A stretch of 64,000 nucleotides of DNA from Bradyrhizobium sp. AZCC 1719. GTDB taxonomy: Bacteria > Pseudomonadota > Alphaproteobacteria > Rhizobiales > Xanthobacteraceae. The notes below the pieces were generated by a model. The model was not told the DNA's origin. It made no database searches and worked only from the letters and a program-made list of their open reading frames with translations. The position numbers and the translations under genes are program-made. Of this stretch, positions 2,528 through 25,821 are shown one piece after another; within the stretch, counting starts at the first letter, position 1, and each line of letters starts with the position of its first letter. The DNA lies in NCBI RefSeq assembly GCF_036924525.1, contig NZ_JAZHRU010000001.1, positions 6,477,001-6,541,000 of the forward strand. The letters are read 5' to 3'.

Positions 2528-3454
2528 ATGGCTCATCCCGCATGGATCCTTGCCGCGCTCGCGATGATCGCGACGATCACAGCTTCTTTCGCGCAGCAAC
2601 AGGAGCTGCCCGTCAACTCCATTGCGGACGGCGTATTCGTACACAACGGCCAAACCGCGCAGATGACGCGCGAGAACGCGGGCGCGATCGCCAATGTCGG
2701 GTTCATCGTTGGCCAGGATGCCGTCGCGGTGATCGATACCGGCGGCAGCCTTCGCGAGGGACGGCAATTGCTGGCGGCGATTCGCGCCCGGACCGACAAG
2801 CCGATACGCTACGTCATCAATACGCACGGCCACCCCGATCACATCTTCGGTAACGGCGCTTTCGTGCAGGACGGAACGACGTTTGTCGGCCACGCGAACC
2901 TGCCGCGCGCGCTGGCGGCGCGCGGTCAATTCTATCTCGACGCATTTCGCCGCACGATGGGCGATCAATTGATCGACGAAATACGCATCGTGCCGCCGAC
3001 GCTGCTCGTCAGCGGCACGCTCCAGCTCGATCTCGGCGGACGAACTCTTGCCGTGCGGGCGTGGCCTGCCGCGCACAGCGATTGCGATCTCACGGTGATA
3101 GATGAAAGGACCGGCACCCTGTTCGCGGGCGACCTCGTGTTTCTCGCCCACACGCCCGTGCTGGACGGCAGCATCCGCGGCTGGCTGTCCGTCATCGGTG
3201 AGCTCGGCGCCTTGCCTGCGGAGCGTGTGGTTCCCGGTCACGGTCCCGTGAGCGGATGGCCGGCCGCCCTCGCCGACCAGCGTCGTTATCTCGAAACGCT
3301 GGCCTCCGATATACGCGGGCTCATCGCCCGCGGCGAACCGATAGGGGCAGCGGCGGGTACTGCAGCAAGCTCCGAGCGATCCCGGTGGGAATTGTTCGAC
3401 GACTTCAACGCCCGCAACGCAACCGCAGCATTCTCGGAAATTGAATGGGAATAG
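2528..3454 (+). CDS. MBL-fold hydrolase, quinoprotein relay system zinc metallohydrolase type
   Basis: This 308-residue protein has a signal peptide (about residues 1-22, cut near SFAQ). It carries the full metallo-beta-lactamase set: H100-x-H102-x-D104-H105 in NTHGHPDH, H183 in AAHSDCD, D202 in FAGDLVF and H238 in VPGHGP. Two bound metals are therefore expected. The combination of MBL protein and SoxYZ-like carrier beside PQQ-associated genes matches the predicted quinoprotein relay systems; substrate unknown. The next gene starts close to or inside its 3' end. An alternative label would be generic MBL hydrolase or glyoxalase II-like, but the context favours the relay family. Confidence 0.85.
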
Positions 3455-3510
3455 CGCGCGCATTGCCCTATATTGCGCGCGTTGCTTCCATCGGCGTGAA
3501 GGTCGTGACC

Positions 3511-4329
3511 ATGTCCGGATATCTGTTCCGCCTCTTCGGCGTCGTTGGCTTGCTACTCTGCGGCGCACCGATGGCGCTCGCGGCAGAGACAAGCGACCTC
3601 TGGCCCGGCCTGGTGCAGGACATCTTCAACAATCGTCCGATGAACGACGGAAGTGACGTGATCGGCATCGAAATGCCGTCGCGTGCCGAGGATGCCGCAA
3701 TCGTCCCGGTCACCTTGCGAACGAAGCTCTCGCCCGGCGATAGCCGGCAGGTGCTGAGCATTACGCTGGTCATCGACCAAAATCCCGCGCCGATGGCGGC
3801 GAAGTTCCAGCTTGGACCGGACGCCAACGTCTCGGAAATCGCCACCCGCGTCCGCGTCAACAATTACACCGATGTCCATGCGGTGGCCGAACTCAGCGAC
3901 GGCAAACTTTACATGACTAAAACCTATGTGAAGGCCTCCGGCGGTTGTTCGGCGCCTGCCGCCAAAAACGCCGACGAGGCCAAGGCCAGGCTGGGCCAGA
4001 TGCGCTATCGGCAGTTCGCGAAGGCCGGCGAAAGCCCGGCCAGTGGCGCGCGCGAAGCCCAGATCATGATCGGCCATCCCAACAATTCCGGCTTGCAGAT
4101 GGACCAGGTCACGCACCTGTATGTCCCGGCTTTCTTCGTCAATGAACTCCGGCTCTGGCAGGACGACAGCCTGGTGTTGACGATGGAAGGCGGCATTTCC
4201 ATTTCAGAAGACCCCAATATCAGGTTCACCTACGTCTCCAATGGCGCGAAACGTTTCCGCGCCGAGGCAAAGGACACCGAGGGGCACGTCTTCCAGCGCG
4301 AATGGAAGGTGGATGATTCGGGGACCTGA
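3511..4329 (+). CDS. quinoprotein dehydrogenase-associated SoxYZ-like carrier
   Basis: This 272-residue secreted protein has two domains. The N-terminal SoxY-like half contains VTLRTKLSPGDSRQVLSITLVID and ends in YVKASGGCSAPA; the cysteine of GGCSAP corresponds to the carrier Cys region of SoxY. The C-terminal SoxZ-like half includes AQIMIGHPNNSGLQMD and ISEDPNIRFTY. I place the start at 3511 because it has an AAGG about 8 nt upstream and gives a compact signal peptide. An in-frame ATG at 3445, overlapping the previous gene, would add 22 residues. A periplasmic sulfur or redox carrier working with the metallohydrolase is inferred. Confidence 0.85.
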   Translation: MSGYLFRLFGVVGLLLCGAPMALAAETSDLWPGLVQDIFNNRPMNDGSDVIGIEMPSRAEDAAIVPVTLRTKLSPGDSRQVLSITLVIDQNPAPMAAKFQLGPDANVSEIATRVRVNNYTDVHAVAELSDGKLYMTKTYVKASGGCSAPAAKNADEAKARLGQMRYRQFAKAGESPASGAREAQIMIGHPNNSGLQMDQVTHLYVPAFFVNELRLWQDDSLVLTMEGGISISEDPNIRFTYVSNGAKRFRAEAKDTEGHVFQREWKVDDSGT

Positions 4330-5017: not shown

Positions 5018-5992
5018 ATGACGCATTTTGTTCGCACGCTGCTTGCTACGATTGTCTTGGTCTCGCTCGGCACGTGCTGCAGCGCCGAGGCTTTACGCGT
5101 TGCGGTGCAGAAGACCGGAACATTCGCCTGGGAACTTGCAGTGATCCGCGCGCACGGCCTCGACAAGCAGGCCAACCTTTCAGTCCAGGTTCTCGAGCTG
5201 GCGAGCCCCGAGGCGGGCAAGATTGCGCTTCGTGCCGGGAATGCCGACATTGTGGTCACCGACTGGCTTTGGGTGTCGCGCGAACGCGGGCTTGGCGCCA
5301 AACTGACATTCTATCCCTATTCGAGCGCGCTCGGCGCCGTGGTGGTCCCTGCCTCATCACCGATCCAGACCTTGGCCGATCTTAAGGGCCGCAAGCTTGC
5401 CGTCGCGGGCGGGCCGATCGACAAGAACTGGCTGCTGCTTTTGGCATGGTTGAAACAGGGCGGCATCGACCTGAAGTCGGACGCGACAATCGCTTACGGC
5501 GCGCCGCCGCTGCTGGCAGCCAAGACGCTCAGCGGCGAAATGGATGCGACCGTGAACTACTGGAATTTCTGTGCGGCACTGGAAGCAAAGGGCTTCCGCC
5601 GCATCGCCGGCATCGAGGACCTGCTGCCGAAACTAGGCGCCAAAGGCCGCACCGCGATGCTCGGCTACGTCTTCGACGAAACATGGGCGAACGCAAACCA
5701 AGATAAAATTGCCCGCTTCATCGCCATGACCCGGGCGGCGAAGGAGATTCTGTCGACCTCGGATGCCGAGTGGGAGAAAATTGCGCCACTGACAGGCGCT
5801 CCAGACGCCGCAACGTTGCGCGCCTATCGTGATCGCTATCGAGAGGGAATTCCGCGACGTCCGATCGCCGACGAAGAAGCCGACGCACGCATTCTCTACC
5901 GCGTGCTGGCTGAAATCGGCGGTCGCGAACTTGTCGGGCCAGCGCCTGAACTGGATGCCGGAACATTCTATCACGCGATCCCGGGAGATTGA
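5018..5992 (+). CDS. ABC transporter substrate-binding protein (SsuA/TauA-like) of the PQQ locus
   Basis: This 324-residue protein has a signal peptide (about residues 1-24, ending CSAEA) and the NMT1/SsuA fold signature: LRVAVQKTGTFAWELAVI, then IALRAGNADIVVTDWLWVSR and LADLKGRKLAVAGGP. It is the first gene of a three-gene ABC importer (binding protein, permease, ATPase) with 1-nt spacing or overlaps. Relatives usually bind sulfonates, nitrate or thiamine precursors. The position among alcohol/PQQ genes suggests a ligand tied to that metabolism, but the sequence does not name it. Confidence 0.85.
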   Translation: MTHFVRTLLATIVLVSLGTCCSAEALRVAVQKTGTFAWELAVIRAHGLDKQANLSVQVLELASPEAGKIALRAGNADIVVTDWLWVSRERGLGAKLTFYPYSSALGAVVVPASSPIQTLADLKGRKLAVAGGPIDKNWLLLLAWLKQGGIDLKSDATIAYGAPPLLAAKTLSGEMDATVNYWNFCAALEAKGFRRIAGIEDLLPKLGAKGRTAMLGYVFDETWANANQDKIARFIAMTRAAKEILSTSDAEWEKIAPLTGAPDAATLRAYRDRYREGIPRRPIADEEADARILYRVLAEIGGRELVGPAPELDAGTFYHAIPGD

Positions 5993-5993
5993 G

Positions 5994-6731
5994 GTGGCAC
6001 GCCTGCTGTCATTCGCCATGTTCGTCGCAATCTGGTGGATCGCCTCGCTGTTTGCCGGTGACGCGAAGCTGCCGCCTCCGCCCGCCGTTCTCACGGCCAT
6101 GATCGCGGAAGCCAGGTCGGGCAACCTGTTCTTTCATCTTGGCGCGACATTGGCGCGCGTTACGCTCGCCTTCACGCTGGCGATGGCGCTGGGCGCGGCC
6201 ATCGGATACCTGATGGGCCGGGTACGGCTTGCCGATCGGCTTGGCGACCCCTGGCTGATCCTGCTGCTCAATCTGCCGGCGCTCGTGGTCATCGTGCTCG
6301 CCTATATCTGGGCCGGATTGACTGAAGTCGCTGCAATTGCGGCAATCGCCATCAACAAGCTCCCGACCGCCGTCGTGACGCTACGTGAGGGCACGCGTGC
6401 CCTCGACGCGGCGCTCGACGAAATGGCGACGGTGTTCGCGTTGCCCCGCTGGAGCAGGTTTCGACACGTCATTTTGCCGCAACTGTCGCCCTACATCGCA
6501 GCCGCGGCACGGTCAGGACTTTCCCTGGTCTGGAAGATCGTACTTGTTGCGGAATTGCTTGGACGTCCGAACGGTGTTGGTTTCGAGATTGGCGTGGCGT
6601 TCCAGCTATTCGACATTCCTTTGTTGCTTGCCTACTCGCTGAGCTTCGCCGCGGTCGTGCTCCTCATTGAAACCTTGTTGGTGCAGCCATTTGAGGCCCG
6701 GTCATCCCGGTGGCGTCCCCGTGCGGCTTGA
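5994..6731 (+). CDS. ABC transporter permease (SsuC/TauC-like)
   Basis: This is a 245-residue BPD-type permease with about six membrane helices. The EAA-like loop reads EMATVFALPRWSRFRHVILPQL, shared across the nitrate/sulfonate/taurine permeases. I take the GTG at 5994 as start: it follows the upstream stop by one base and has GGGAG seven bases before it. An upstream in-frame ATG at 5955 would lie inside the binding-protein gene. It partners with the binding protein before it and the ATPase that overlaps its end. Confidence 0.85.
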   Translation: MARLLSFAMFVAIWWIASLFAGDAKLPPPPAVLTAMIAEARSGNLFFHLGATLARVTLAFTLAMALGAAIGYLMGRVRLADRLGDPWLILLLNLPALVVIVLAYIWAGLTEVAAIAAIAINKLPTAVVTLREGTRALDAALDEMATVFALPRWSRFRHVILPQLSPYIAAAARSGLSLVWKIVLVAELLGRPNGVGFEIGVAFQLFDIPLLLAYSLSFAAVVLLIETLLVQPFEARSSRWRPRAA

Positions 6732-7449
6732 GGTCGAAATCGCCAGCAAGACGTTCAAGAGCGCGGCGGGCGAACAGCACGACGTGATCGCTGGCGTCGC
6801 CTTTGCGCTTAATGCAGGAGAGGTTGGTGTATTGGTCGGCCCATCCGGCTGCGGCAAGAGTACGATGCTTCGGATCCTCGCCGGCCTCGACCCCGACTTT
6901 CAAGGGCGCGTCTCGCGACCCGCCGGCGCGCGGATCGGCTTCGTATTCCAGGAGCCGCGGCTGTTGCCGTGGCGGTCGGTCGAGGAAAATGTGCGACTTG
7001 CCGCGCCTCTTGCCGATGAACCAAAGCTCTCAGCACTCTTCGAAATTCTGGAGCTGAAGGCACATCGCAACCATTTTCCCGGCGAGTTATCGCTCGGCCT
7101 CGCGCGGCGCGTTGCGCTTGCCCGCGCGTTCGCCGTCGAGCCGGAGTTGCTCATTCTCGACGAACCGCTCGCCTCGCTAGATGCCGCCCTTGCGAGCCGC
7201 CTGCGCGATGAGATCGCCATGTTGATGGACGGTCGCTCCGTGATAACGCTGCTGGTCACCCATGACGTAGACGATGCGGTTCGTCTCGGCGATCGCGTAA
7301 TCCTGCTGTCGCCGCGCCCGGCCCGGGTTCTCGCGGACCTGCCTATCCGCACGCCGCGAAGCGCACGCGGAGAGGTCGAGATCGCGGCAATCAAATCGGA
7401 AATCATGCGGCGGATTGATGGCTGTCCCACCAAGCAGGATGGGTCATAG
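6721..7449 (+). CDS. ABC transporter ATP-binding protein (SsuB/TauB-like)
   Basis: This 242-residue ATPase starts at a GTG (6721) that overlaps the permease stop by 11 nt. Walker A GPSGCGKST, Q-loop VFQEPRLLPW, Walker B LLILDEPLASLD and the H-loop VTHDVDDAV are all present. The family signature is altered: ELSLGLARRVALARA replaces the usual LSGGQxQR, so a Leu sits where the second Gly normally is. Such changes occur in some sulfonate-type ATPases and need not abolish function. It completes the importer 5018-7449. Confidence 0.88.
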   Translation: MRLEVEIASKTFKSAAGEQHDVIAGVAFALNAGEVGVLVGPSGCGKSTMLRILAGLDPDFQGRVSRPAGARIGFVFQEPRLLPWRSVEENVRLAAPLADEPKLSALFEILELKAHRNHFPGELSLGLARRVALARAFAVEPELLILDEPLASLDAALASRLRDEIAMLMDGRSVITLLVTHDVDDAVRLGDRVILLSPRPARVLADLPIRTPRSARGEVEIAAIKSEIMRRIDGCPTKQDGS

Positions 7450-8326: not shown

Positions 8327-8671
8327 ATGCGATGGATACTGGCTTTGGCGGCACTGCTGTCAACGAGCGCCAACGAGGTGGCCGCGCAGGGAAAAGGCAT
8401 CCGATTGTGGAATCTTACCACGGCGACCATTTCCGAGTTTCAGCTTTCCCCGCCCGGCAAGAACGATTGGGGTCCCAACCTCACCCTGAACGACAAGGAC
8501 AAAGAAGTCGACCACGACGAACGCCTGCGCATCACAGGCGTGGAGCCGGGGCGTTATGATGCCAAGGTCGGCTATCGCGGCTCAAGGCACTGCTTCGTTC
8601 GCGACGTCGAAATCAAGGCTGACGCCGTGTTTTCGATCGCGGACAAAGATCTAAAGGACTGTAACAAATAG
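8327..8671 (+). CDS. secreted hypothetical protein
   Basis: This 114-residue protein has a signal peptide (MRWILALAALLSTSANEVAA). The mature domain contains GIRLWNLTTATISEFQLSP and RITGVEPGRYDAKVGYRG. Two cysteines (RHCFVRD, KDCNK) may pair. The alternating hydrophobic pattern suggests a small beta-sandwich. It follows the pentapeptide-repeat gene by 34 nt and is probably in the same transcript. Not assigned to a named family. Confidence 0.75.
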   Translation: MRWILALAALLSTSANEVAAQGKGIRLWNLTTATISEFQLSPPGKNDWGPNLTLNDKDKEVDHDERLRITGVEPGRYDAKVGYRGSRHCFVRDVEIKADAVFSIADKDLKDCNK

Positions 8672-8689
8672 CCGCCGCTGGACGACCAT

Positions 8690-8926
8690 TCAGCCTGTCG
8701 ACCACACGGCGTCGCCGGATGCCTTTCGATTGGTGCCTGGATATTCGCAGCGCCATTTGACCGCGGTCCATTTCGGGTGTTCGCTAACCCACTGCGCGAT
8801 GTAGGGCTGCGCGTTCATGGCACATTGCTGCAACGAAGCATTTGAAGAAAAGACCAAATGGGTTTCCTCGCAAGTGGTGGGCGAGAGAACCGCACAAACG
8901 GTCACGACCAAATCTATTGGGGTCAT
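8690..8926 (-). CDS. conserved small secreted protein
   Basis: This 78-residue protein begins MTPIDLVVTVCAVLSPTTCE. I chose the ATG at 8926 because AAGGG lies nine bases upstream; an in-frame ATG at 8944 would add six residues. The N-terminus is a short hydrophobic export signal or anchor. Four cysteines are spaced across the protein (VTVC, TTCEE, QQCAMN, WRCEYPG). I recognise the pattern as a common rhizobial hypothetical (SNASLQQCAMNAQPYIAQW) without known function. Confidence 0.7.
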   Translation of the reverse strand: MTPIDLVVTVCAVLSPTTCEETHLVFSSNASLQQCAMNAQPYIAQWVSEHPKWTAVKWRCEYPGTNRKASGDAVWSTG

Positions 8927-9047
8927 ATCTGATATCCCTTGCATTGTTCCCGAACAGATTAACGCAAAGAGTTACGGCAATGGGCGGCCCGACGTTTCAC
9001 TACCTCGTGAAAAAGTCGGAACTCGGGGCCGCGGGCAGCCTCCAGCC

Positions 9048-9920
9048 CTAAAAGTTGACGCCAAATACCAGTCGCGCCTGGTGACGTTCGAAATTGACGA
9101 GATCAAGGCCGGCCGTCGAGCCCGCCGGACGCCCCCACGCTTGCAAGCTCCAGCTTGCGGTCAGCCGCGAGCTTTTCGACAACTGGAAATATGCGGTCGG
9201 ACCGACAAACAACGCTTGCCCTGTGAGTTTGTCCAGACTGATCCCCTCATATTTTCGCAGGTAACGCGCCTCTCCGCCTAGCAAGAAACCGGGATACAAC
9301 TGCGCCATGACCCCAAGCGCCGTGCCGGCGGTGGACTCCCGCTCCATCGCGCCACTGCCGATCAATCGTGTCCACTCTGGTTCGTAGATCAGGTTGAACG
9401 CGGCGACGACGCGATTCGGTACGAGCTCGCGATCGAACGCCAGCCTGAATTCAGTCCCGAAACTCCGGACCGCTTCAGCGGTCGTCTCCTCGACACGATG
9501 CGCGTGCGCTTCCGTCGCGAACGTAACTCCGAATGGTGCCGTTTCCCGATCGAGAAAGCGGTAGCGCAGATCGATCGACCCGCCCTGCCATGACAGCCGG
9601 CGCTGGTCGTCAAGGCCTGGCCCGCCACTGATCAGATGCGACGCAAACGTGCTTCCCACCTCGATTCGAAAATTCCGGACCGGCACAAATTCCAGTTCAA
9701 ACTCCTGGCCAACCGCCCGATAAGTACCCCCGTTCCTGCCGAAGCGCCCGGTCGTCTCGCTCTGAAACTCCCGTTCCCCGACATTGCCGACATTGGTGCC
9801 GATCATAAAGCCGAACAGATGCTCGGTATCGATGCCCTCGGCATAGCCACAAGCCGGCAGCAGCGCAGCAAAGGACACGACCGCCGCCTGGAAGGTCCTT
9901 GCACGCATAGACATTCGCAT
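9048..9920 (-). CDS. outer-membrane beta-barrel-like hypothetical protein
   Basis: This 290-residue protein has a signal peptide (RTFQAAVVSFAALLPACGYA) and a mature part of alternating beta strands ending in Phe (ARLVFGVNF), the usual C-terminal signal for outer-membrane insertion. Strand-like text includes FRIEVGSTFASHLI, SIDLRYRFLD and GEARYLRKYEG. The start is uncertain among three close ATGs (9920, 9914, 9908) and no strong ribosome site is visible. It lies 297 nt downstream of pqqA on the same strand; a link to PQQ chemistry is not shown. Confidence 0.7.
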   Translation of the reverse strand: MRMSMRARTFQAAVVSFAALLPACGYAEGIDTEHLFGFMIGTNVGNVGEREFQSETTGRFGRNGGTYRAVGQEFELEFVPVRNFRIEVGSTFASHLISGGPGLDDQRRLSWQGGSIDLRYRFLDRETAPFGVTFATEAHAHRVEETTAEAVRSFGTEFRLAFDRELVPNRVVAAFNLIYEPEWTRLIGSGAMERESTAGTALGVMAQLYPGFLLGGEARYLRKYEGISLDKLTGQALFVGPTAYFQLSKSSRLTASWSLQAWGRPAGSTAGLDLVNFERHQARLVFGVNF

Positions 9921-10159
9921 TCAGCGGGTCATGGGGTTGAACGGGTGATTCCCGGCGGTGCCGGCCGGGCATACCCTAGCATGATGCGGCGACCATCCGC
10001 GAGCCATGGGAAGACACGGAATGCAGGTGGAGCAGCGCAGAAACTGGACTGGATCGGCACCATCGACCGCCTACCGAAGATCCCGCTGGCTTTGGCAGGA
10101 TCCGCGGGCTCACTCGTGGTGCAAGCAATGGAGGACTGACTTCGTGGCAATTGAACAGC

Positions 10160-10201
10160 CTGCCCGGCCCACAGCAACATGCTGTTGCCGGAGCCGGGCA
10201 G
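10160..10201 (-). terminator. hairpin just downstream of pqqA
   Basis: CTGCCCGGC (10160-10168) pairs perfectly with GCCGGGCAG (10193-10201), and the loop holds a second stem (ACAGCA/TGCTGT). It begins 15 nt after the pqqA stop on the minus strand. There is no long U run after it, so it may be a processing or stability structure rather than a classical terminator. About 240 nt without a gene follow, up to the beta-barrel gene; I saw nothing else there. Confidence 0.5.
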
Positions 10202-10216
10202 ACCGCTTCGACGCGT

Positions 10217-10297
10217 CTATTTACGCGCCGCGCAGGCGTACATGTTGATTTCCATGCCCACCGACACTTCCACGATCTTCGGAGTTTTCCAACTCAT
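10217..10297 (-). CDS. pqqA: pyrroloquinoline quinone precursor peptide PqqA
   Basis: This is a 26-codon gene on the minus strand. The peptide starts MSWKTPKIVEVSVGMEINMY and ends ACAARK. E16 and Y20 (E-x3-Y) are the glutamate and tyrosine that PqqE joins and that become the PQQ skeleton. The flanking MSWKTPKIVEV and GMEINMYACA text is the canonical PqqA pattern of alphaproteobacteria. GGGAGA lies five bases before the ATG. No pqqB, C, D or E follows; the next minus gene is a beta-barrel protein. This is thus a stand-alone pqqA, near PQQ-alcohol accessory genes but apart from the biosynthetic operon. Confidence 0.93.
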   Translation of the reverse strand: MSWKTPKIVEVSVGMEINMYACAARK

Positions 10298-10429
10298 CAG
10301 GGTCTCCCAAGCAGTGCTGGCACGACATTCGTGCCCGGACGAAAACTAGGGTCACCGTGAACAGAGCGCAAGTACGGAAGGTCGAAGGTCGCACTATGCG
10401 CACCATCTCCGAAGGAAGAAGTTCGCTCC

Positions 10430-10508
10430 TGGACAAACCTACTTCCCTCTTGGACAAACCTGCGGATGAGGGCGCCGCATCGACGCATGCACCGCGAGGG
10501 TTCGTCCA
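10430..10508. promoter_or_regulatory. repeated TGGACAAACCT sites upstream of pqqA
   Basis: TGGACAAACCT occurs at 10430-10440 and again at 10451-10461, exactly 21 bp (two helical turns) apart. A related inverted copy, AGGGTTCGTCCA, lies at 10497-10508. The cluster is 133-211 nt upstream of the pqqA start. Helically phased repeats in a promoter region suggest activator or repressor binding. Apart from these sites I see nothing coding in 10298-10588. Confidence 0.4.
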
Positions 10509-10588
10509 ATCACAGTTCGAACGACCTTCTATTGTGCATCCGCGCTTGTCTGCCGAACCAGTATGGCGACCAGGATCGATACGTAGCT

Positions 10589-10915
10589 TCAGCAGTCCTT
10601 GTCTGCCTCTGTGACCTTGTCGCCCTTGGCGCCTTCAGCCTGCTGTGCCGCCGTCGGTTCGCCTTGCATCTGCCGCTGCGTATCTTGTGAAGATGCAGCA
10701 GTGTCTCCCGCCGCTCGATTCATCTTATCGGTCGGCGGATGTTGATCGGTGCTGCCAGCCATACCCGTTGTCTGGCTGTCGCCCATCTTGGCCGGTCCGG
10801 AGCCAGCATCCTTCAGGTTGGCCGCGCGTCCCGTCTCGCAAGGACCCGCAAGTGCTGCGCCGGTGCTCAAGACCAGGATCGAGCAACCAGCCAGAATGAG
10901 CCGTTTCATTTTCAT
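10589..10915 (-). CDS. secreted low-complexity hypothetical protein
   Basis: This 108-residue protein has a signal peptide (MKMKRLILAGCSILVLSTGA, then ALAGP). The mature part is polar and probably disordered, rich in Asp, Gln, Thr and Ala (GDSQTTGMAGSTDQHPPTDK). It has one Cys just after the cleavage site (GPCETG) and one as last residue (ADKDC). The start at 10915 has AGGAGAG upstream. Similar exported Ala/Gln-rich proteins are common in Bradyrhizobium; function unknown. Confidence 0.65.
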   Translation of the reverse strand: MKMKRLILAGCSILVLSTGAALAGPCETGRAANLKDAGSGPAKMGDSQTTGMAGSTDQHPPTDKMNRAAGDTAASSQDTQRQMQGEPTAAQQAEGAKGDKVTEADKDC

Positions 10916-11052
10916 CTGTCTCTCCTTCCTTTTCTTGTGAAGCGCGCGCAACACGATGAGAGGCAACCGACCCGCTGTCCGCAGGTTCCGGGTGGCTACG
11001 CGAATATCGACACGTTTAATCTGACGCGTGCGTTACTAGTGAGGACAATCCG

Positions 11053-11316
11053 ATGGAACCGATTCACAGAGGGTTGATCAGTTTTCTTTTCGCGCTGTGC
11101 TTTGCATCGGCGGTGCTTGCGCAGGAAAGGCAGCCTGGCCAAACCGCACCGAATACGGAAACCGCCCTGCCCGCTGACGGGTCATCGCTGACCGGAAAAG
11201 AGCGCCTGGGAAAAAAGTGGATGGACGAGCAACGGATCGACAATTGCAACGTGCCCATCGACAAGCGCGGCAGCAAGCCGCGATCCATGACCTGCCCGCA
11301 TGTTCCGGCAGGATGA
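11053..11316 (+). CDS. small secreted hypothetical protein
   Basis: This 87-residue protein has a signal peptide (about residues 1-23, LISFLFALCFASAVLAQ). A short polar mature part contains GKERLGKKWMDEQRIDNCNV and ends in SMTCPHVPAG. The two cysteines could form a disulfide. It stands alone between the PQQ and phosphonate regions and converges with the phn operon. No function recognised. Confidence 0.65.
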   Translation: MEPIHRGLISFLFALCFASAVLAQERQPGQTAPNTETALPADGSSLTGKERLGKKWMDEQRIDNCNVPIDKRGSKPRSMTCPHVPAG

Positions 11317-11337
11317 TCAGCGGCGACGATCAGCGCA

Positions 11338-11949
11338 TCACCACATCGTCTGCCGCGCGCGCTCTGGCCATTCCCGATCGTATTTCTCGCCACCGACGGC
11401 GTTGTCGCTCATTCCGGCAAGGATCTGGCCGGGCGTCGGCAAGCTTCTCGGGTCGACGCGCTTGTCGGGATTCCAGAGATCGGAACGCACGATGGCGCGC
11501 GCGCACTGGAAGTAAACCTCCTCGACTGTCATGACGATGACGGTGCGCGGCGCCTTGCCTTCCATCTTGAACGACGCGAGCAGTTCCGGATCGGCGGAGA
11601 CGTGGGCGCGACCGTTGATGCGCAGCGTGCTGCCGGATCCGGGGATGAGAAACAGGAGCGCCACCCGCGGATCGCGCACGATATTACGCAGCGAATCGCA
11701 ACGGTTGTTGCCGCGGCGATCCGGCATCATCAGCGTTTTCTCATCGCGGATGCGAACGAAGCCCGGCAGGTCGCCGCGCGGCGAGCAGTCCAGCCCCTCG
11801 GGTCCGCAGGTCGCGAGCGCTGCGAACGGCGATTTGTCCATCAACGCCCGATAGGCTGGCGTGACGCGGTCGGCGACTTTGACCGTCGAGGCATCGTTGG
11901 GAAAGCCGTAGATGGCCTCGAGCTGCTCGATGGTAGCGATAACAGTCAC
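11338..11949 (-). CDS. PPOX-class FMN-binding protein at the end of the phn operon
   Basis: This 203-residue protein belongs to the pyridoxamine 5'-phosphate oxidase-like split-barrel family (DR_2398-type). Motifs: SPFAALATCGPEGLDCSPRG, RRGNNRCDSLRNIV and FLIPGSGSTLRINGRA. The frame continues far upstream, but the GTG at 11949 is the natural start: it lies one base after the phnN stop and has GGGAG seven bases before it. It is therefore the last gene of phnGHIJKLMN. A flavin-dependent reductase or oxidase acting on an unknown compound is likely; a role in phosphonate use is only suggested by linkage. Confidence 0.82.
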   Translation of the reverse strand: MTVIATIEQLEAIYGFPNDASTVKVADRVTPAYRALMDKSPFAALATCGPEGLDCSPRGDLPGFVRIRDEKTLMMPDRRGNNRCDSLRNIVRDPRVALLFLIPGSGSTLRINGRAHVSADPELLASFKMEGKAPRTVIVMTVEEVYFQCARAIVRSDLWNPDKRVDPRSLPTPGQILAGMSDNAVGGEKYDREWPERARQTMW

Positions 11950-11950
11950 T

Positions 11951-12562
11951 TTAGCTCTCCCGTCGATCGTCCCATTTCTCGCCCTTGATGACGCGGACGA
12001 GCTGGCGGGCATGGTATTCGGCGCTGCCGGTATTGACGATGGTGACGTCGGGCGCGGCCGCCGCATCCTCCACCGTGCGACCCAAGCGGGCTTCGAGCCT
12101 GCCGTCGCTGCTCCGCCGCCGCATCGCCAGCCGCTCGGCCAAAACGTTTGGCGGGGCCGTGATCGAGACCACCACCACGTCGGCATAGGCGCGGCGCATC
12201 GCGCCGATCACGGTGCGCGATACGTTGGCAACGATGGTTCGCCCGGCGCGGATTTCGTCGTCGATCGCGCACGACAGTGCATAGCAGTGGCCGTGGGCTT
12301 CCCAATGCATGGCGTATTCGCCACGCGCCAGCGCCTCCCGGAACGTTCTGGAGCTGACCTGTTCGTTTTCTTCCGACGCCGACGCCTCGCGCGTAATCAC
12401 GCGACGTGGAAACACAATTTTGCTGTCATCGGTGCAGGTGGCCTTGGCGAGGCCGAGCAGCGTGTCTTTGCCGGCGCCGCTTGGGCCAACCACCAGGATC
12501 AAACGGCCCGGCCCGATTGCGACGGCCTGGCCTGGCGCTGTGGTTGTCAAGATTTCGGTCAT
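11951..12562 (-). CDS. phnN: ribose 1,5-bisphosphate phosphokinase PhnN
   Basis: This 203-residue protein has the guanylate-kinase-like P-loop GPSGAGKDT near residue 27 and the following text RRVITREASASEENEQV, characteristic of PhnN. The family phosphorylates ribose 1,5-bisphosphate to PRPP, the last step that returns the ribose carrier of the C-P lyase pathway. It overlaps the phnM stop by 4 nt and is followed directly by the PPOX gene. Confidence 0.93.
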   Translation of the reverse strand: MTEILTTTAPGQAVAIGPGRLILVVGPSGAGKDTLLGLAKATCTDDSKIVFPRRVITREASASEENEQVSSRTFREALARGEYAMHWEAHGHCYALSCAIDDEIRAGRTIVANVSRTVIGAMRRAYADVVVVSITAPPNVLAERLAMRRRSSDGRLEARLGRTVEDAAAAPDVTIVNTGSAEYHARQLVRVIKGEKWDDRRES

Positions 12563-13713
12563 GCCACGCGCCGCCCTTCCCGCCAGACGCTGCGCACCAC
12601 CGGAATGTTGCGGGCGACATGCACCCGGATGACATCGGCCCGCTTGCCGGCTGCGATCTCGCCACGGTCCGCAAGGCCCACGGCCTCGGCTGGTGTCTTG
12701 GTGACGGTGCGGACGGCGGAGGCCAGATCAATCGCCGGCACATGCTGCGGCAATTGCAGGGCTGCCATCAAAAGACTCGAAGGGATGTAGTCGGACGACA
12801 GGATGTCCAACAGTCCCTCGCGGGCGAGATCGATGGCGGCGATGTTGCCGGAATGCGAACCGCCGCGGACCACGTTCGGCGCGCCCATCAGGATGCCGAT
12901 GCCGGCCTGATGCAGGCCGCGCGCGGCTTCCATTGTGGTCGGAAACTCAGCGACCGAAACGCGATCCTGGATCGCATCGGCGACATTTTCCTCGGTCGTG
13001 TCGTCGTGGCTGGCGAGCGGGATTTCATATCGATGCGCAAGCGCCACGATTTCGCGCAGATTGGTCGCGGCATAGGCCTTCTGATAGGCAAAGCGCTTCT
13101 CGAACAGTGCATCGAGCTCGGCGTCGGTCTTGCCGCCGCCCTTGCCGCGGTAATAGTCGCGGAGCTTGACCTCGTCGCGAAACTGGCGTTGGCCCGGCGT
13201 GTGGTCCATCAGCGACATCAGCCGCACGTCTGGCCGATCGATCAGCTCCCTGGCCTCCTCGACCACGCTGGGCATCGGGATTTCGCAGCGCAGATGCAGG
13301 AAGTGGTCGGCACGCAGCAGGTTCGCCTCGCGCGCGGATGTGATCGCCTCCGCCAGCACGCCTGCCCTGCCGTCAACCTCCTCGGCGCCGTCCTCGCGCC
13401 AGACCCGGAGCGAATCCAGAACCGTGGTGATGCCCGAGGTTGCCAACTGTCCGTCGTAGGAAACCACCGCCGCGATTGGATCCCAGAACACCTTCGGGCG
13501 CGGCACATAGTGCATTTCGAGATGGTCGGTGTGGAGCTCGATCAGGCCTGGCATGATCAGGTCGCCGCCGGCATCCTCGCTGCCGGACGGCGCAGTGCCC
13601 TCGCCGTATTCAGCAATACGGCCATCTGCGAAAGCGACCCAACCGTGCTCGATCACGCGATCGGCCAGTACAAGGCGCGCGTTGCCGAGGATGGTTTCGT
13701 GCTTCGAAGTCAT
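12559..13713 (-). CDS. phnM: alpha-D-ribose 1-methylphosphonate 5-triphosphate diphosphatase PhnM
   Basis: This 384-residue amidohydrolase-superfamily enzyme carries MPGLIELHTDHLEMHYVPRP (metal-binding HTDH), the PhnM-specific SLMDHTPGQRQF, ASHDDTT and [14 protein letters not shown]. The family releases pyrophosphate from the ribose-phosphonate triphosphate made by PhnGHIL. The ATG at 13713 has AAGGAAG upstream; an in-frame ATG at 13743 is not needed. This is the canonical PhnM of the operon; a divergent second copy lies at 24628. Confidence 0.93.
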   Translation of the reverse strand: MTSKHETILGNARLVLADRVIEHGWVAFADGRIAEYGEGTAPSGSEDAGGDLIMPGLIELHTDHLEMHYVPRPKVFWDPIAAVVSYDGQLATSGITTVLDSLRVWREDGAEEVDGRAGVLAEAITSAREANLLRADHFLHLRCEIPMPSVVEEARELIDRPDVRLMSLMDHTPGQRQFRDEVKLRDYYRGKGGGKTDAELDALFEKRFAYQKAYAATNLREIVALAHRYEIPLASHDDTTEENVADAIQDRVSVAEFPTTMEAARGLHQAGIGILMGAPNVVRGGSHSGNIAAIDLAREGLLDILSSDYIPSSLLMAALQLPQHVPAIDLASAVRTVTKTPAEAVGLADRGEIAAGKRADVIRVHVARNIPVVRSVWREGRRVA

Positions 13714-13726
13714 CTCACATCTTCCT

Positions 13727-14437
13727 TCATGCCGCGGCGGCAAACGATGTCACGTCGACGATGCGGTCGGCGATCAGATGGCGAATTTCATCGTCATGGA
13801 CGATCGCCACCATCGCGACGCGCTGTCGCTTCTTCTGTTCGATCAACTCAACGACAACGGTGCGATTGGCCGCATCGAGCGAGGCGGTCGGCTCGTCCAG
13901 CAGCAGAATCGGCAGCTCGGAAATGAAGCCACGCGCGATATTGACGCGCTGCTGCTCGCCACCGGAGAACGTCGATGGCGGCAGCGCCCACAGGCGCTCG
14001 GGAATGTTGAGGCGACGCAGCAGCGCGCCCGCCTTCTCGCGGGCTTCCGCGCGTGCAATTCCGTTCGCAATCAGCGGCTCCGCCACCACATCGATGGTAG
14101 CGACCCGCGGCACCGCCCGCAAGAACTGGCTGACATAGCCGATTGTCGAGCGGCGCACGCTAAGCACCTGCCGCGGCTCGGCCGTGGCAAGGTCGATCAC
14201 CGTGCCTTGATGCCGGATGCCGATCCGGCCGCCATCACAGCGGTAATTTCCAAAGATCATTTTCAGGATCGAGGATTTGCCGGCGCCGGAAGGGCCCGAC
14301 AGCACCACGCATTCACCCGGCTCGACCTGAAACGAGACGCCGCGCACCACGGGCAGCTCGACGCCGCCCTGCAGATGCATGGTAAAGGTCTTTTCGGCGC
14401 TGGTGATGTCGATCATCGCAGTCATTGGCGTGCTCAT
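13727..14437 (-). CDS. phnL: C-P lyase system ATP-binding protein PhnL
   Basis: This 236-residue ABC-type ATPase has Walker A GPSGAGKSS, signature FSGGEQQRVNIARG and Walker B ILLLDEPTASLD. PhnL belongs to the C-P lyase complex and is implicated, with PhnGHI, in loading the phosphonate onto ribose triphosphate; it is not a transport ATPase. Its start overlaps the phnK stop by 4 nt, and phnM follows after 13 nt. Confidence 0.93.
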   Translation of the reverse strand: MSTPMTAMIDITSAEKTFTMHLQGGVELPVVRGVSFQVEPGECVVLSGPSGAGKSSILKMIFGNYRCDGGRIGIRHQGTVIDLATAEPRQVLSVRRSTIGYVSQFLRAVPRVATIDVVAEPLIANGIARAEAREKAGALLRRLNIPERLWALPPSTFSGGEQQRVNIARGFISELPILLLDEPTASLDAANRTVVVELIEQKKRQRVAMVAIVHDDEIRHLIADRIVDVTSFAAAA

Positions 14438-19123: not shown

Positions 19124-19984
19124 TTACCCGACGGCGCGTCGCCCGATGATCGCGAAGCGGAGACGCGATGAAATGGCGTCAATGATCGCCACAGTGATCA
19201 GGATCATGATGATCAGAAAAGCAACGCGATCCCAGTTCTGCTGGCTGATCTCGTTGGAAAGATAAAGACCAATCCCGCCTGCCCCAACGATGCCGATCAC
19301 CGTCGCGGAACGCGTATTTGACTCGAAGTAATAAAGCACCTGGCTCAGGATCACCGGAAGCACCTGAGGGACGATGCCAAATCGTATTTTATGAAGGCTC
19401 GACCCGCCGGCCGCGGTTATACCGTCGACGGGTTTGGTGTCAGCCGTTTCGATCGCCTCGGAGAACAGTTTGCCGAAGGTTCCGAGATCAGACATGGCGA
19501 TCGCCAGGATCCCGGCAAAGGGACCGAGCCCCACCACGTTGATGAAGATGAGCGCCCAGATCAGCGTGTCGACTCCGCGGATCGTGTCGAGCGCACGACG
19601 TGAAAGAAAATGAATGATGCGTTGGCCGACGACATTCCGGGCCGCAACGAATGCCACGGGATAGGCAACAATCGCCGCCAGGAGGGTTCCCAGAAAGGCG
19701 ATGGCAAGCGTTTCCGCCAGGCCCTTCAGATAGAGGTGAAGCAGGCTACCGGGGTTCGGCGGAAACATCAGGCCGACGATCACACCAAGGCGGCCGATCC
19801 CGGTCGCCAGCTTTTCGAACGAGAAGCCGAGCCATATCATGCCGAAGATAAACAGCCCGACGAGCGCAGCAACCACTGACAGGGTCTGCATTCGTTTCAG
19901 AAGCGATGGCCTGAAGATCTCCGGATAGGTCTGGACAAGGCGGGTCCGATCGGTCTCGGTGAGGCTCGAAAGGTTCGACATCAC
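19124..19984 (-). CDS. phnE: phosphonate ABC transporter permease PhnE (second copy)
   Basis: This 286-residue permease has about six membrane helices. The coupling loop reads EAIETADTKPVDGITAAGGS and the text includes LDTIRGVDTLIWALIFINVV, both PhnE features. Its start overlaps the preceding phnE stop by 4 nt, so the two permeases are probably made together and may form a heterodimer. It ends the phnCDDEE operon, converging with phnF. Confidence 0.92.
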   Translation of the reverse strand: MMSNLSSLTETDRTRLVQTYPEIFRPSLLKRMQTLSVVAALVGLFIFGMIWLGFSFEKLATGIGRLGVIVGLMFPPNPGSLLHLYLKGLAETLAIAFLGTLLAAIVAYPVAFVAARNVVGQRIIHFLSRRALDTIRGVDTLIWALIFINVVGLGPFAGILAIAMSDLGTFGKLFSEAIETADTKPVDGITAAGGSSLHKIRFGIVPQVLPVILSQVLYYFESNTRSATVIGIVGAGGIGLYLSNEISQQNWDRVAFLIIMILITVAIIDAISSRLRFAIIGRRAVG

Positions 19985-20963: not shown

Positions 20964-21902
20964 CTATGAAGCCTTTTTCTTGCGCTGCTCATCAAGCCAA
21001 AGGTTCATCTTGACCGACTCTTCGTAGTCCTTGGCGGTCACCTCTACGAAACCCAAATCCTTGCCATCCGAAAGCTTTGCGAATGCATCCTTATCTTTCT
21101 GGGGCGCCTCGACGAACGCCTTGGCGATTGCCTTTTTCAAGTCTTCCGGCATGTCGGCAAGATATGCGAACGGTGAACCGGGCAAGAGCGGCGACTTCCA
21201 TGCGATGCGGAAATCAGCCTTGGTCATCGGCGATCCGTCTGCTTTCTTCACCATGCCCTTGTTCAGCATACGGGTGAGGTTCGAATCGTCCTCCGAATTC
21301 CACCAGTTCACGGCGGCATCCACGGTGCCGGCGGCGAGTGCCAGCACTGCGTTTTCGTGACTTCCGGTCGTTTGCCCGACCTTGAAATACTTGTCGATCG
21401 GGAAGCCCTGCTGCGTCAGGAAGAAGTTGGGCGCCTTGAAACCGGACGTCGATTCGACATCGACGAAGCCCAGCGTCGTTCCTTTCAGATCCTCGATCGA
21501 TTTGTACTTGCTGTCAGCACGGACATACATAACCGAATAGTAGCCGATCGAGCCATCGCTGTTCTTTGTCGTCACGAACGGCACGACCTTGCCGCCCGAG
21601 ACGGTATTTGCGCGCGCATACGAGCCCGGCCCATAGAAGCCGATATGAATTTGCTTGTTCTTCTGCCCCTCGATCACCGCGGTGTAGTCGCTTGCCACGC
21701 GCAACGTAACCTTCACGCCCAACTCCTTCGAAAGGTAATTTGCGAAGGGCGTGTAACGTTCAAGCGTCCCGGTCGCGTTTTCTGCGGGAACCAGCGCCAT
21801 CACCAGTTCGGGGTACTTCTCTTTCCACGACTGGGCGAAGGCGGGCGTTGCAACGATAGCCAGGCCGGACGCCAACAACAGCAATGCACGTCGGTTCAAC
21901 AT
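20964..21902 (-). CDS. phnD: phosphonate-binding protein PhnD (downstream paralogue)
   Basis: This 312-residue periplasmic binding protein starts with MLNRRALLLLASGLAIVATP and a signal cut near AFAQ. The ligand region has ALVPAENATGTLERYTPF, HIGFYGPGSYARA and DVESTSGFKAPNFFL. It is closely related by eye to the next gene upstream (roughly 70 percent identical), so the pair looks like a tandem duplication. Both keep the binding-site text around YGPGSYARA and GSHENA. Differences such as FYGPG versus QYGPG could tune ligand range. Confidence 0.92.
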   Translation of the reverse strand: MLNRRALLLLASGLAIVATPAFAQSWKEKYPELVMALVPAENATGTLERYTPFANYLSKELGVKVTLRVASDYTAVIEGQKNKQIHIGFYGPGSYARANTVSGGKVVPFVTTKNSDGSIGYYSVMYVRADSKYKSIEDLKGTTLGFVDVESTSGFKAPNFFLTQQGFPIDKYFKVGQTTGSHENAVLALAAGTVDAAVNWWNSEDDSNLTRMLNKGMVKKADGSPMTKADFRIAWKSPLLPGSPFAYLADMPEDLKKAIAKAFVEAPQKDKDAFAKLSDGKDLGFVEVTAKDYEESVKMNLWLDEQRKKKAS

Positions 21903-21962
21903 TTCTCTCTCCTCTGATTTTCTGAAATGGCCGCAAGCTGAAAGACGACGACCCGAACAAGA

Positions 21963-22901
21963 TCAGTTTGTAGGTTTGCGTTTGCGTTGCTCATCAAGCC
22001 ACAGGTTCATCTTGACCGACTCGACGTAGTCTTCCTTCGAAACGCGCGCAAAATTCTCAACCTTGCCGTCGGTCAATGCGTCGAAGGCAGCCTTGTTCTT
22101 TTTGGGCGCAGCCAGGAAGGCCTGAATGATCGCGGACTTGAGGTCCTCGGGCATGTCAGCAAGCAGCGCAAAGGGTGACCCCGGCAGCAGCGGTGATTTC
22201 CAGATGACGCGGAAATCGGCCTTCGTCATCGGCGTGCCGTCGGGCTTCTTGAGCATGCCCTTGGTGAGCATTCGGACCAGATTCGAGTCGTCCTCGCCGT
22301 TCCACCAGTTGGCCGCCGCGTCGACCGTTCCGTTCGCCAACGCGAAGATAGCGTTTTCGTGGCTGCCGGTTGGCTGAGCCAACTTGAAATGCTTTTCGAT
22401 TGGGAAGCCCTGGTCGGCCAAAAAGAAAGTCGGAGCTTTGGAACCGGAAGTCGATTCGACATCGACCAGCCCCAACGTCCTTCCTTTGAGATCATCGATG
22501 GATTTGTATGGGCTGTCGGCGCGCACATAGATCACGGAGTAGTATCCAATCACGCCACCCGAACTGCGCAGGGTCGCGAACGGGACAACGTTGCCGCCAG
22601 ATACGGTGTTGGCTCGCGCATAGGAGCCGGGCCCATACTGGCCGATATGGATTTGCCGGGTCTTCTGGCCCTCGATCACCGCCGTATAGTCGTTGGCGAC
22701 ACGCAACGTGACTTTCACGCCGAGTTCATCCGTTAGATACTCAGCAAAAGGTCCAACGCGCGCCAGGACCCCGGTTGCGTTCTCGGCCGGCACCAACGCC
22801 ATCACCAATTCGGGATACTTCGCTTTCCATTCCTGCGCCGAAGCCACGGAAGCTATTGCGGCCAGCGCAGCGGCGAGAACAAACCGACGATTGAACATCA
22901 T
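21963..22901 (-). CDS. phnD: phosphonate-binding protein PhnD (upstream paralogue)
   Basis: This 312-residue periplasmic binding protein has a signal peptide (MMFNRRFVLAAALAAIASVA, then SAQ). It has ALVPAENATGVLARVGPF, HIGQYGPGSYARA and DVESTSGSKAPTFFL. It follows phnC by 60 nt and precedes its paralogue by 60 nt; the same C-terminal VKMNLWLDEQRK appears in both. The start could be either of two adjacent ATGs (22901 or 22898). Confidence 0.92.
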   Translation of the reverse strand: MMFNRRFVLAAALAAIASVASAQEWKAKYPELVMALVPAENATGVLARVGPFAEYLTDELGVKVTLRVANDYTAVIEGQKTRQIHIGQYGPGSYARANTVSGGNVVPFATLRSSGGVIGYYSVIYVRADSPYKSIDDLKGRTLGLVDVESTSGSKAPTFFLADQGFPIEKHFKLAQPTGSHENAIFALANGTVDAAANWWNGEDDSNLVRMLTKGMLKKPDGTPMTKADFRVIWKSPLLPGSPFALLADMPEDLKSAIIQAFLAAPKKNKAAFDALTDGKVENFARVSKEDYVESVKMNLWLDEQRKRKPTN

Positions 22902-23965: not shown

Positions 23966-24631
23966 ATGGCCGGCAAGATGCTTTCCACTGAACCATTGGT
24001 CGACCCCACCGCGTCAGTGCGCGACTGCCAGCTTGGCGCCTACACCGAGGTCGGCGCCCGGACCATTCTGCTCGAAGTCACGATGGCCGATTATTCCTAC
24101 GTCGTGAACGACTCGCAGATCACCTATACGACGATCGGGAAATTCTGTTCGATCGCGGCGATGACGCGCATCAACCCGGGCAATCATCCGATGCACCGGG
24201 CCTCGCAGGCGCATTTCACCTACCGCGCCTCCAGCTACTTTTCGGGCGAGAGCGACGATGCCGAGTTTTTTGCGTGGCGCCGCAAGCATCACGTCCATAT
24301 CGGCCATGACGCCTGGATCGGCCACGGCGCGGTTATTCTGCCTGGCCGATCGATCGGCACCGGCGCGGTGGTCGCGGCCGGCGCCATCGTGACCAAGGAT
24401 GTCCCCGCCTATACGAACGTTGCAGGCAATCCGGCACGGCCGATCAAGCGGCGTTTTCCGGAATCCATTGCCGGGCGGCTTGCGGAACTCGCGTGGTGGG
24501 ATTGGGGCCATGAGACGCTGCGCCACGCCCTGCCCGATTTCCGCAAGCTCGATGTAGAGGGCTTTCTCGAAAAGTACGAAGCCGCCGCAGCAGCTACTCG
24601 CCGTCCATTCAACCAGAGTGCCGCATCGTGA
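23966..24631 (+). CDS. hexapeptide-repeat acyltransferase of phosphonate metabolism
   Basis: This 221-residue left-handed beta-helix transferase has imperfect hexapeptides from about residue 20 ([19 protein letters not shown]) and the CoA/active-site stretch [19 protein letters not shown] followed by [20 protein letters not shown] and VAGNPARPI. It matches the phosphonate-linked branch (TIGR03308-like). It opens a Pho-box-driven operon with the second phnM and the DUF1045 gene, joined by 4-nt overlaps. Acetylation of an aminoalkylphosphonate or pathway intermediate, as PhnO does in E. coli, is a reasonable guess. Confidence 0.85.
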
Positions 24632-25821
24632 CCGAACTGTTCATCGAAGGTGGCCGGGCCCTGCTCGGCCACGAAATCGTCGAAACCTCATTGCGGATCG
24701 CTGGCCGCGAGATCGCAGCCGTAGGTGCGTACAGCAACCACAGCATCGGCGGCGTCAATGCCGATGGCCTCCTGGTATTGCCGGGCATTGTCGATCTGCA
24801 TGGCGATGCCTTCGAGCGGCAGATGATGCCGCGCCCCGGGGTCGACTTCCCGATCGATGTGGCGCTTGTTGACAGCGACCGGCAGGCGATCAGCAACGGG
24901 ATCACGACCGTCTACCATGCCACGACCTGGTCGTGGGAGCCCGGCCTGCGCAGCGCCGACAATGCCAGGCGCTTGCTGGAGGCGATCGAGCAGATGCGGC
25001 CGCAGCTCGCCGCCGACACTCGCTTCCACTTGCGTCACGAGACCTACAATCTCGACGCAGAAAGCGAAATCATCGACTGGCTGTCGGAAGGACGCGTCGA
25101 CCTGTTCGCCTTCAACGACCATATGGACTCGACGGTCGCCAGCCTCGCCAAGCCGCAAAAGCGCAGCCGAATGGTCGAGCGCACAGGCCTCAGCAATGAG
25201 GCGTTCGATCGCCTGGTGGAACGTGTGGTCTCCCGCGGCCACGACGTGCCGGCTTCGATCGCCCGGCTGGCGCAGGCAGCGCGCGCGGCGGGTGTCCGGA
25301 TGCTCTCGCATGACGACGAGAGCCCGGCGATGCGGCAGGCCTTTCGTGCGCAGGGCGTTGCAATCGCCGAATTTCCGGTCAACGAGGAAACCGCACGCGA
25401 TGCTGCCGAGGCCGGTGACTTCATCGTGTTTGGCGCGCCCAATGTGGTGCGCGGCGGCAGCCATACCGGCTGGACCAGGGCCTCCGACATGATCGCCAAG
25501 GGCCTCTGTTCGGTGCTTGCGTCGGACTATTATTATCCGGCGCCGCTATTGGCGGCATTCCGGCTTGCGACCGACGCCGTTCTGCCGCTGGCCGCGGCAT
25601 GGCAATTGATCTCAGCGGCACCGGCGCGCGCCGCCGGCCTCGCCGATCGCGGCACGCTCGCCGCGGGGCAGCGTGCCGACATCCTTCTCGTCGATGACAC
25701 GGTGCCGCTGCGGCCGCGGGTAGTCGCAGTCATTGCCGCGGGGCATCTCGTACATCTGACGGAGGCGAACCGTCTCGTCCATTCGTCCACAGCACCACGC
25801 AAGGCGGTTGCAGCCGCGTGA
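24628..25821 (+). CDS. phnM: second, divergent PhnM-like amidohydrolase
   Basis: This 397-residue amidohydrolase has the metal-binding text [20 protein letters not shown], then [29 protein letters not shown] and [11 protein letters not shown]. It differs from the operon PhnM at 12559: HTDH is replaced by HGDA and the SLMDHTPGQRQF block by [10 protein letters not shown]. It therefore looks like a separate subfamily, usually named PhnM or ribose-methylphosphonate triphosphate diphosphatase. It overlaps both neighbours by 4 nt. Confidence 0.85.

Follow-up and report, generated by a model that had tools for sequence, protein, structure and literature searches.

An orphan pqqA gene of Bradyrhizobium shares a tandem operator-like site with the xoxF/araC intergenic region

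Introduction

Why should a bacterium that encodes a complete pathway for the cofactor pyrroloquinoline quinone (PQQ) also carry a separate gene for the PQQ precursor peptide, PqqA, away from the biosynthetic genes? The question is raised by a pqqA gene of Bradyrhizobium sp. AZCC 1719, which lies in a 64,000-nucleotide stretch of DNA (C1:6477001-6541000) of a 7.2-Mb single-contig genome. The whole of this stretch is referred to here as the window, and positions are those of the window unless a contig or locus is named. An earlier note on the same DNA, made from the sequence alone, had proposed that the supply of PqqA is tuned with alcohol oxidation and not with the biosynthetic enzymes. Comparison with related genomes supports this proposal, in that the orphan gene and the gap between xoxF and a divergent araC-family gene have in common a tandem operator-like site, which operonic pqqA genes lack. 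The literature on known systems was available in part, and statements about it hold for those parts; papers are cited by PMC accession.

An orphan pqqA in a genome with a complete PQQ pathway

The gene (Table 1) encodes the peptide MSWKTPKIVEVSVGMEINMYACAARK, followed by a stop codon, with the Glu-x3-Tyr crosslink pair at E16 and Y20. Against the PqqA equivalog profile TIGR02107 this peptide scores 45.3 bits (cut-off 20). The earlier description of a 26-codon PqqA is thereby borne out, and the strand, which had been left unstated, is the minus strand. A chance reading frame or a pseudogene is ruled out by the profile score and by synteny in relatives. The ribosome-binding site that had been seen upstream is present, with GGGAG ending 6 nt before the ATG. 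As also claimed, pqqB-E are absent downstream, where the next same-strand frame conserved in relatives encodes an uncharacterised protein (9048-9920).

A search of the genome reveals two pqqA matches, both above the TIGR02107 cut-off; of the earlier suggestion of several copies, the presence of a further copy stands and the number is two. The second gene (C1:3146912-3146989, peptide MAWKAPKIAEVSVGMEINMYMCATRK) is situated 3.3 Mb from the orphan copy and heads a complete operon at approximately 3.14 Mb, with pqqB, pqqC, pqqD and pqqE downstream. In this locus (L004), pqqB, pqqC and pqqE are above family cut-offs and pqqD is present too. The search thus excludes an adjacent pqqBCDE operon beside the window copy, which is therefore an orphan in a complete-pathway genome.

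A tandem site shared with xoxF and araC

The phased repeats previously noted upstream of the gene are real. Two half-sites, TTGTCCAAGAGGGAA (10443-10457) and TTGTCCAGGAGCGAA (10422-10436), are both in direct orientation, 21 bp apart, and together form a 36-bp site 125-160 bp 5' of orphan pqqA; the reversed pattern is unmatched genome-wide. Relatives carry half-sites resembling TTTGTCCAAGAGAGAA at the same place, and the promoters of operonic pqqA genes look unlike these. For searches, a 15+6+15 pattern was built to cover the pqqA and xoxF sites, with the reversed pattern as control. As it was fitted to known sites and loci, with some genomes recurring, the re-finding of known sites is partly by construction; the scarcity of matches elsewhere is not.

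In the genome of AZCC 1719 the pattern has two perfect matches, one 5' of orphan pqqA and the other in the xoxF/araC gap. One further match appears at three mismatches, and the reversed control gives none. When 60 genomes of the genus were searched with up to two mismatches, 50 contained matches, to a total of 100 (reversed control 0). These comprise 49 upstream of an orphan pqqA, 49 at xoxF/araC and two elsewhere, which on the reading frames around them are still inside a quinoprotein cluster. The first base of the site lies 156-171 bp before the ATG in 48 of the 49 orphan-pqqA sites and 141 bp before it in the other; in one of the 49 (L155), the opposite flank of the site additionally shows a weak xoxF-like match (38%). 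No pqqB was found in the loci of any of the 100 matches, and a tandem site is present at 0/20 operonic pqqA genes.

The two matches elsewhere are rare extra tandem sites, one near position 2036 of locus L188 (genome G012), approximately 180 bp upstream of a response-regulator gene, and the other near position 2036 of locus L192 (G032), adjoining a MoxJ-like gene.

Two simpler motifs were tried and rejected. The literal repeat AGGTTTGTCCA-N10-AGGTTTGTCCA has a single occurrence in the genome, because the site is degenerate and the repeat is only the form that it takes in this strain. Half-sites taken singly are too common to be of use, with 27 matches vs 11 for the reversed control.

Conservation of extra pqqA genes in the genus

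The earlier note had implied that a stand-alone pqqA is rare. This is not so, as separate extra copies have been published for methylotrophs, and at least two pqqA matches are normal in the genus (185 of 195 sampled genomes, with any match in 191 and up to five matches per genome). From the listed genus matches, 40 pqqA loci of up to 20 kb each were picked by hand. Eight are pqqBCE operons and 32 are non-operon loci. Among the latter, 26 lie amid quinoprotein accessory genes, five have nothing but a PQQ-dehydrogenase homologue nearby (plus, in two cases, a weak MoxJ-like match), and the last (L065) is close to none of the reference genes. The high proportion amid accessory genes indicates that the orphan gene is part of a syntenic cluster and not an accident of one strain.

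Two other arrangements were observed. In three genomes, at L151, L158 and L159 (the same places as L056, L060 and L066), pqqA, araC and a xoxF-like gene of more divergent sequence, 72-76% identical, form a compact module within a few kb, with both sites present. Upstream of the orphan pqqA of L037, L077 and L078 (L041 being the same locus as L037), another conserved block (GATGATTGAGGCGGAA...) replaces the tandem site, and is possibly the operator of another regulator.

A candidate AraC-family regulator

The gene divergent from xoxF encodes an AraC-family protein, which in L068 has 322 residues in one intact frame, with an N-terminal AraC_binding_2 domain and, at the C-terminus, the double helix-turn-helix domain HTH_18. 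The HTH_18 domain scores 70.3 bits in this protein and 73.5 bits in the C-terminal fragment encoded by AZCC 1719. There is full-length similarity to the FeaR equivalog NF007243 (169.0 and 166.5 bits), which does not reach the cut-off of 199 bits.

An araC ortholog was found in 56 of the 60 genus genomes. Gene and pattern match occur together in 49, the gene alone in seven, the match alone in one (G035) and neither in three. The seven gene-only genomes were considered as counter-examples and rejected, as at least six of them have a xoxF/araC site with a 7-bp gap. This was read directly in G004 and comes from equated named loci for G003, G037, G042, G044 and G049; the seventh is G010. In 80 named loci that were fetched by araC relatives, 73 of them from Bradyrhizobium, the site is present upstream of araC in 79, with a 6-bp gap in 52 (period 21) and a 7-bp gap in 27 (period 22). 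The sole exception is L319, with no tandem site upstream of araC.

The association extends to the family. Among 149 family genomes, the site is present in 18 of 19 with an araC ortholog vs 3 of 130 without (Fisher p 3.5e-19, uncorrected for kinship, with seven of the 18 belonging to the same genus as AZCC 1719). Of these three, G286 has its site at pqqA, G247 has one beside an AraC-like match of 29% identity, and the two-mismatch match in G257 looks unrelated. Of 30 family matches, 27 were classified: 17 are at xoxF or araC, seven at pqqA and three at neither (L214, L237 and L239), the site in L237 lying upstream of a xoxF-like frame. In L213 and L222 the site is beside araC where the divergent neighbour is not xoxF. 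This favours the AraC protein as the reader of the site.

The proposed regulon and alternative explanations

We consider it probable, at about 70%, that xoxF and orphan pqqA are together in a very small regulon of the AraC type, which would raise precursor supply when XoxF is made. The gene is a second one for the PQQ precursor peptide, and would be regulated along with XoxF, a methanol dehydrogenase of the lanthanide type. The FeaR-like protein encoded divergently from xoxF in relatives would bind two 15-bp half-sites in direct repeat, spaced by about two turns of the helix, at one operator copy between xoxF and araC and at the other upstream of orphan pqqA. With the system on, XoxF apoenzyme and extra PqqA would be produced together. 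The extra peptide would feed PqqD and PqqE from the distant pqqABCDE operon, the promoter of which is without the operator. One PqqA is consumed per PQQ, whereas the pathway enzymes turn over, so the peptide is a plausible step to control. Precursor supply, the cheap step, would track holoenzyme demand, and PQQ supply would track the apoenzyme. Binding by the AraC protein, activation as opposed to repression, the inducer and a gain in PQQ are all predictions from sequence.

A broader proposal is put forward more tentatively, and at somewhat less than even odds. The regulon may consist of essentially two operators, through which an undescribed AraC-type regulator couples synthesis of XoxF to that of the ribosomally made PQQ precursor, with the biosynthetic operon bypassed. 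Control of PQQ supply would then act on PqqA in place of the enzymes, and the regulator would be a sensor of a new type that responds to methanol, formaldehyde, lanthanide or the demand for PQQ.

Several observations weigh against orphan pqqA being a member of such a regulon. Among 37 orphan pqqA genes in named loci, 22 have the site with a 6-bp gap and four with a 5-bp gap, and 11 have no site; likewise, the gap-6 pattern has no match in 10 of the 60 genus genomes. Relative to pqqA the site has direct orientation, and relative to xoxF it is inverted. The two promoters may therefore respond differently, with control of another sign or strength at one than at the other. In G286 and G035 (the latter 80% complete) there is a pqqA site and no araC ortholog was found, and G274, a genome of the family, lacks the site and has an araC match of 47% identity. 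In published RNA-seq of Bradyrhizobium sp. USDA 3456, methanol and lanthanum vs succinate and lanthanum did not show upregulation of PQQ biosynthesis genes, and the portion of that paper available makes no mention of orphan pqqA (PMC12628762).

The araC gene of AZCC 1719 itself adds to these points. Located outside the window (L005:1552-2573, C1 ~6466551-6467572), it is divided into two frames by an in-frame tandem duplication of 60 bp together with a change of frame; the operator sites are intact. This is the only one of the 56 ortholog-bearing genus genomes without an araC match starting at residue 1. The close relative G109 has an unbroken gene, with 98% identity over residues 70-322. Normal control may therefore have been lost or altered in this strain, or the assembly may be wrong.

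It is also conceivable, if unlikely, that the shared operator is read by a different regulator; co-regulation of pqqA and xoxF would stay. One such candidate is a response regulator whose gene lies, with that of a sensor kinase, between the accessory genes and xoxF. The cluster does encode a sensor kinase along with a NarL/LuxR-like response regulator (identified by similarity, below curated cut-offs), the rare-earth switch of Pseudomonas putida depends crucially on the two-component system PedS2/PedR2, and the extra site in G012 precedes a response-regulator gene. However, the site adjoins araC in all but one of the 80 named loci, although these were fetched by araC, and it stays with araC in L213 and L222, where xoxF is not the neighbour. 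Two direct half-sites of ~15 bp at a 21-bp period are, in addition, the layout of AraC/XylS activators.

A regulatory role for the repeats could be dispensed with entirely if orphan pqqA were merely a dosage duplicate, lying in the cluster by chance. Some of the up to five pqqA matches per genome in the genus lack the site, and PqqA availability has been called rate-determining in Methylovorus sp. MP688 (PMC11317620), so dosage alone could pay. Chance placement is nevertheless difficult to reconcile with a site that 49 of 60 genomes keep at a near-constant distance from the ATG and that has almost no location besides this one and xoxF/araC, which makes this account quite unlikely. Very unlikely is a role of the orphan PqqA, or of PQQ derived from it, in lanthanide acquisition instead of enzyme loading. 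The gene does lie near an ABC transporter and XoxF accessory genes, but the peptide is a standard PqqA and the shared operator points to xoxF. There is no other gap-6 site within two mismatches in the genome, which leaves both the TonB receptor and the ABC transporter without one.

Promoter, leader and 3' hairpin of orphan pqqA

Table 1. Features of the window at and around orphan pqqA
Feature	Position	Strand	Basis
PQQ-dependent catabolism-associated CXXCW motif protein	837-1412	minus	TIGR03865, 240 bits (cut-off 128)
MoxJ-like quinoprotein-associated substrate-binding protein	1409-2275	minus	TIGR03871, 312 bits (cut-off 212)
Quinoprotein relay system zinc metallohydrolase 2	2528-3454	plus	TIGR04559, 407 bits (cut-off 280)
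Quinoprotein dehydrogenase-associated SoxYZ-like carrier	3445-4329	plus	TIGR04557, 282 bits (cut-off 140)
ABC transporter (NMT1-like binding protein, permease, ATPase)	5018-7449	plus	Pfam NMT1 above cut-off
Uncharacterised protein 3' of pqqA, in syntenic block	9048-9920	minus	No Pfam/NCBIfam match
Strong 3' hairpin after stop codon, no T-run	~10154-10207	minus	RNA fold of 10140-10225
Orphan pqqA, 26 codons + stop	10217-10297	minus	Translation, TIGR02107 profile score, synteny in relatives
Ribosome-binding site GGGAG	10304-10308	minus	Kept as TTGGGAG in consensus
Short leader hairpin GGCACGA-N3-TCGTGCC	10319-10335	minus	Paired changes in relatives
Promoter-like elements TTGCGC-N17-TAGTTT	10343-10371	minus	Consensus of 72 orphan upstream regions
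Tandem operator-like site, two 15-bp half-sites TTGYYCNNNAGNGAA, 6-bp gap, period 21	10422-10457	minus	Pattern matches
Small uncharacterised protein 5' of pqqA, same strand	10589-10966	minus	No family match; in some relatives' loci

Downstream of the tandem site are promoter-like elements, kept among operator-bearing orphans as CTTGcgC ... CCTAGgTT. A sigma-70 scan called no promoter at 10343-10371; the elements are a putative one. Between them and the ribosome-binding site is the leader hairpin, the pairing of which is kept through two-sided changes (52 of 117 orphans fitted the extraction pattern). Leader stems of at least 6 are moderately enriched, at 83 of 117 orphans vs 38 of 117 shuffled sequences. 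The hairpin was rejected as an orphan-specific feature, since operonic copies are similar (17 of 20 vs 8 of 20 shuffled). These pooled orphan figures, and those below for 112 orphans, are not unbiased rates, because many of the loci were fetched for having the operator.

The hairpin previously described downstream of the gene is also real, with a fold of -48.1 kcal/mol for 10140-10225 and a z of -6.4 vs dinucleotide shuffles. It was rejected as a standard terminator: there is no T-run, which only 29 of 112 orphans have, and a terminator scan does not call it. In the 90 nt past the stop codon, z is below -2 in 106 of 112 orphans and in 12 of 20 operonic copies (simple base shuffles). Rfam gave no match at 8600-11400. 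Taken together, the layout is consistent with an orphan pqqA message that is short, stable and monocistronic.

Neighbourhood of orphan pqqA

Quinoprotein accessory genes had been reported beside pqqA, and four are confirmed above NCBIfam cut-offs (Table 1). The permease and ATPase of the ABC transporter are called by similarity, below NCBIfam cut-offs; from its position alone, the transporter could have a role in lanthanide uptake. The protein encoded immediately 3' of pqqA recurs in many relatives' loci, and is 49-91% identical where present.

To the left of the window, genes for a beta-propeller protein, a PQQ-system substrate-binding protein and an S-formylglutathione hydrolase are above cut-offs, and a NarL/LuxR-like response regulator, a sensor kinase and a TonB receptor are identified by similarity only, below cut-offs. 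Past all of these, further left and again outside the window, is xoxF. The XoxF of AZCC 1719 has 600 residues and a WDYDG motif, with the extra Asp of XoxF-type enzymes; an Asp of the motif would bind the lanthanide. Its relative in L068 scores 785 bits against the methanol/ethanol dehydrogenase model TIGR03075 (cut-off 480). The additional Asp has been described as predicting lanthanide dependency (PMC12628762).

Elsewhere in the window are genes putatively involved in phosphonate transport. Two tandem genes for PhnD phosphonate-binding proteins, both above the family cut-off, are located at 20964-22901, with a PhnE permease gene on the same strand at 19124-19984. They are flanked by two distinct PhnM-type diphosphatase genes, at 12559-13743 (-) and 24628-25821 (+), each of which fits best a different curated subtype.

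Comparison with known systems

Extra pqqA genes with regulation of their own have been published. In M. aquaticum 22A, pqqA1A2 follow methanol, and pqqBCDE are upregulated only with methanol and calcium (PMC5784242). All three pqqA copies of Beijerinckiaceae RH AL1 are reported down with neodymium (PMC10848612), and this contradicts the simple expectation of higher pqqA in the presence of lanthanides. Extra or orphan pqqA copies with their own regulation are thus already a known kind of gene; it is the operator wiring of orphan pqqA to xoxF that looks to be the new part. In Bradyrhizobium, XoxF-linked, lanthanide-dependent growth on methanol has recently been reported, with xoxF up ~60-fold on methanol (PMC12628762, published in 2025); the word AraC is absent from the main text of that paper. 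Neither a xoxF-linked operator on orphan pqqA nor the AraC-type candidate regulator was found in the literature, coverage of which was partial, so that absence from print is unproved. Among papers naming both xoxF and AraC, the cases checked turned out to be a regulator of vanillate genes in one, the names of a person and of a plant in another, and the name of a species in a third.

FeaR, of the AraC family, activates the amine oxidase genes tynA and feaB of E. coli, and uses two direct half-sites. The candidate here is similar to the FeaR model over its full length but scores below its cut-off, and lies divergent from xoxF. As with PedS2/PedR2 and MxaY, which control genes of PQQ-dependent dehydrogenases in response to lanthanides, a dehydrogenase gene is the putative target. 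MxaY is of the two-component type. PedS2/PedR2 is as well, unlike the AraC-type candidate proposed here. If the proposed regulon is correct, it names a candidate regulator of the AraC type for the lanthanide-dependent oxidation of methanol in a genus common in soil, and shows how a cell balances an apoenzyme with its peptide-derived cofactor. With a 36-bp operator on both orphan pqqA and xoxF, beside the candidate regulator, the question is testable in culturable rhizobia.

Multiple pqqA genes are also present in Methylovorus sp. MP688 (PMC11317620) and in a PQQ-producing strain with five copies, three of them separate on the genome, which are expressed at unequal levels (PMC9851590). Unlike the gene described here, none is linked to a xoxF operator in the available parts of these descriptions. 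The closest parallel is Methylorubrum extorquens AM1, which again has extra pqqA genes, termed orphan by the authors. Transcripts of pqqA2 and pqqA3 there respond to neodymium, being fourfold up with NdCl3 vs Nd2O3, and most PQQ biosynthesis genes do not (PMC11317620). The available literature gives no explanation for such a response of orphan pqqA to lanthanides in methylotrophs. In contrast to M. extorquens AM1, for which the available account describes no operator or regulator, the orphan pqqA of Bradyrhizobium lies in the XoxF cluster and has an operator-like site in common with xoxF.
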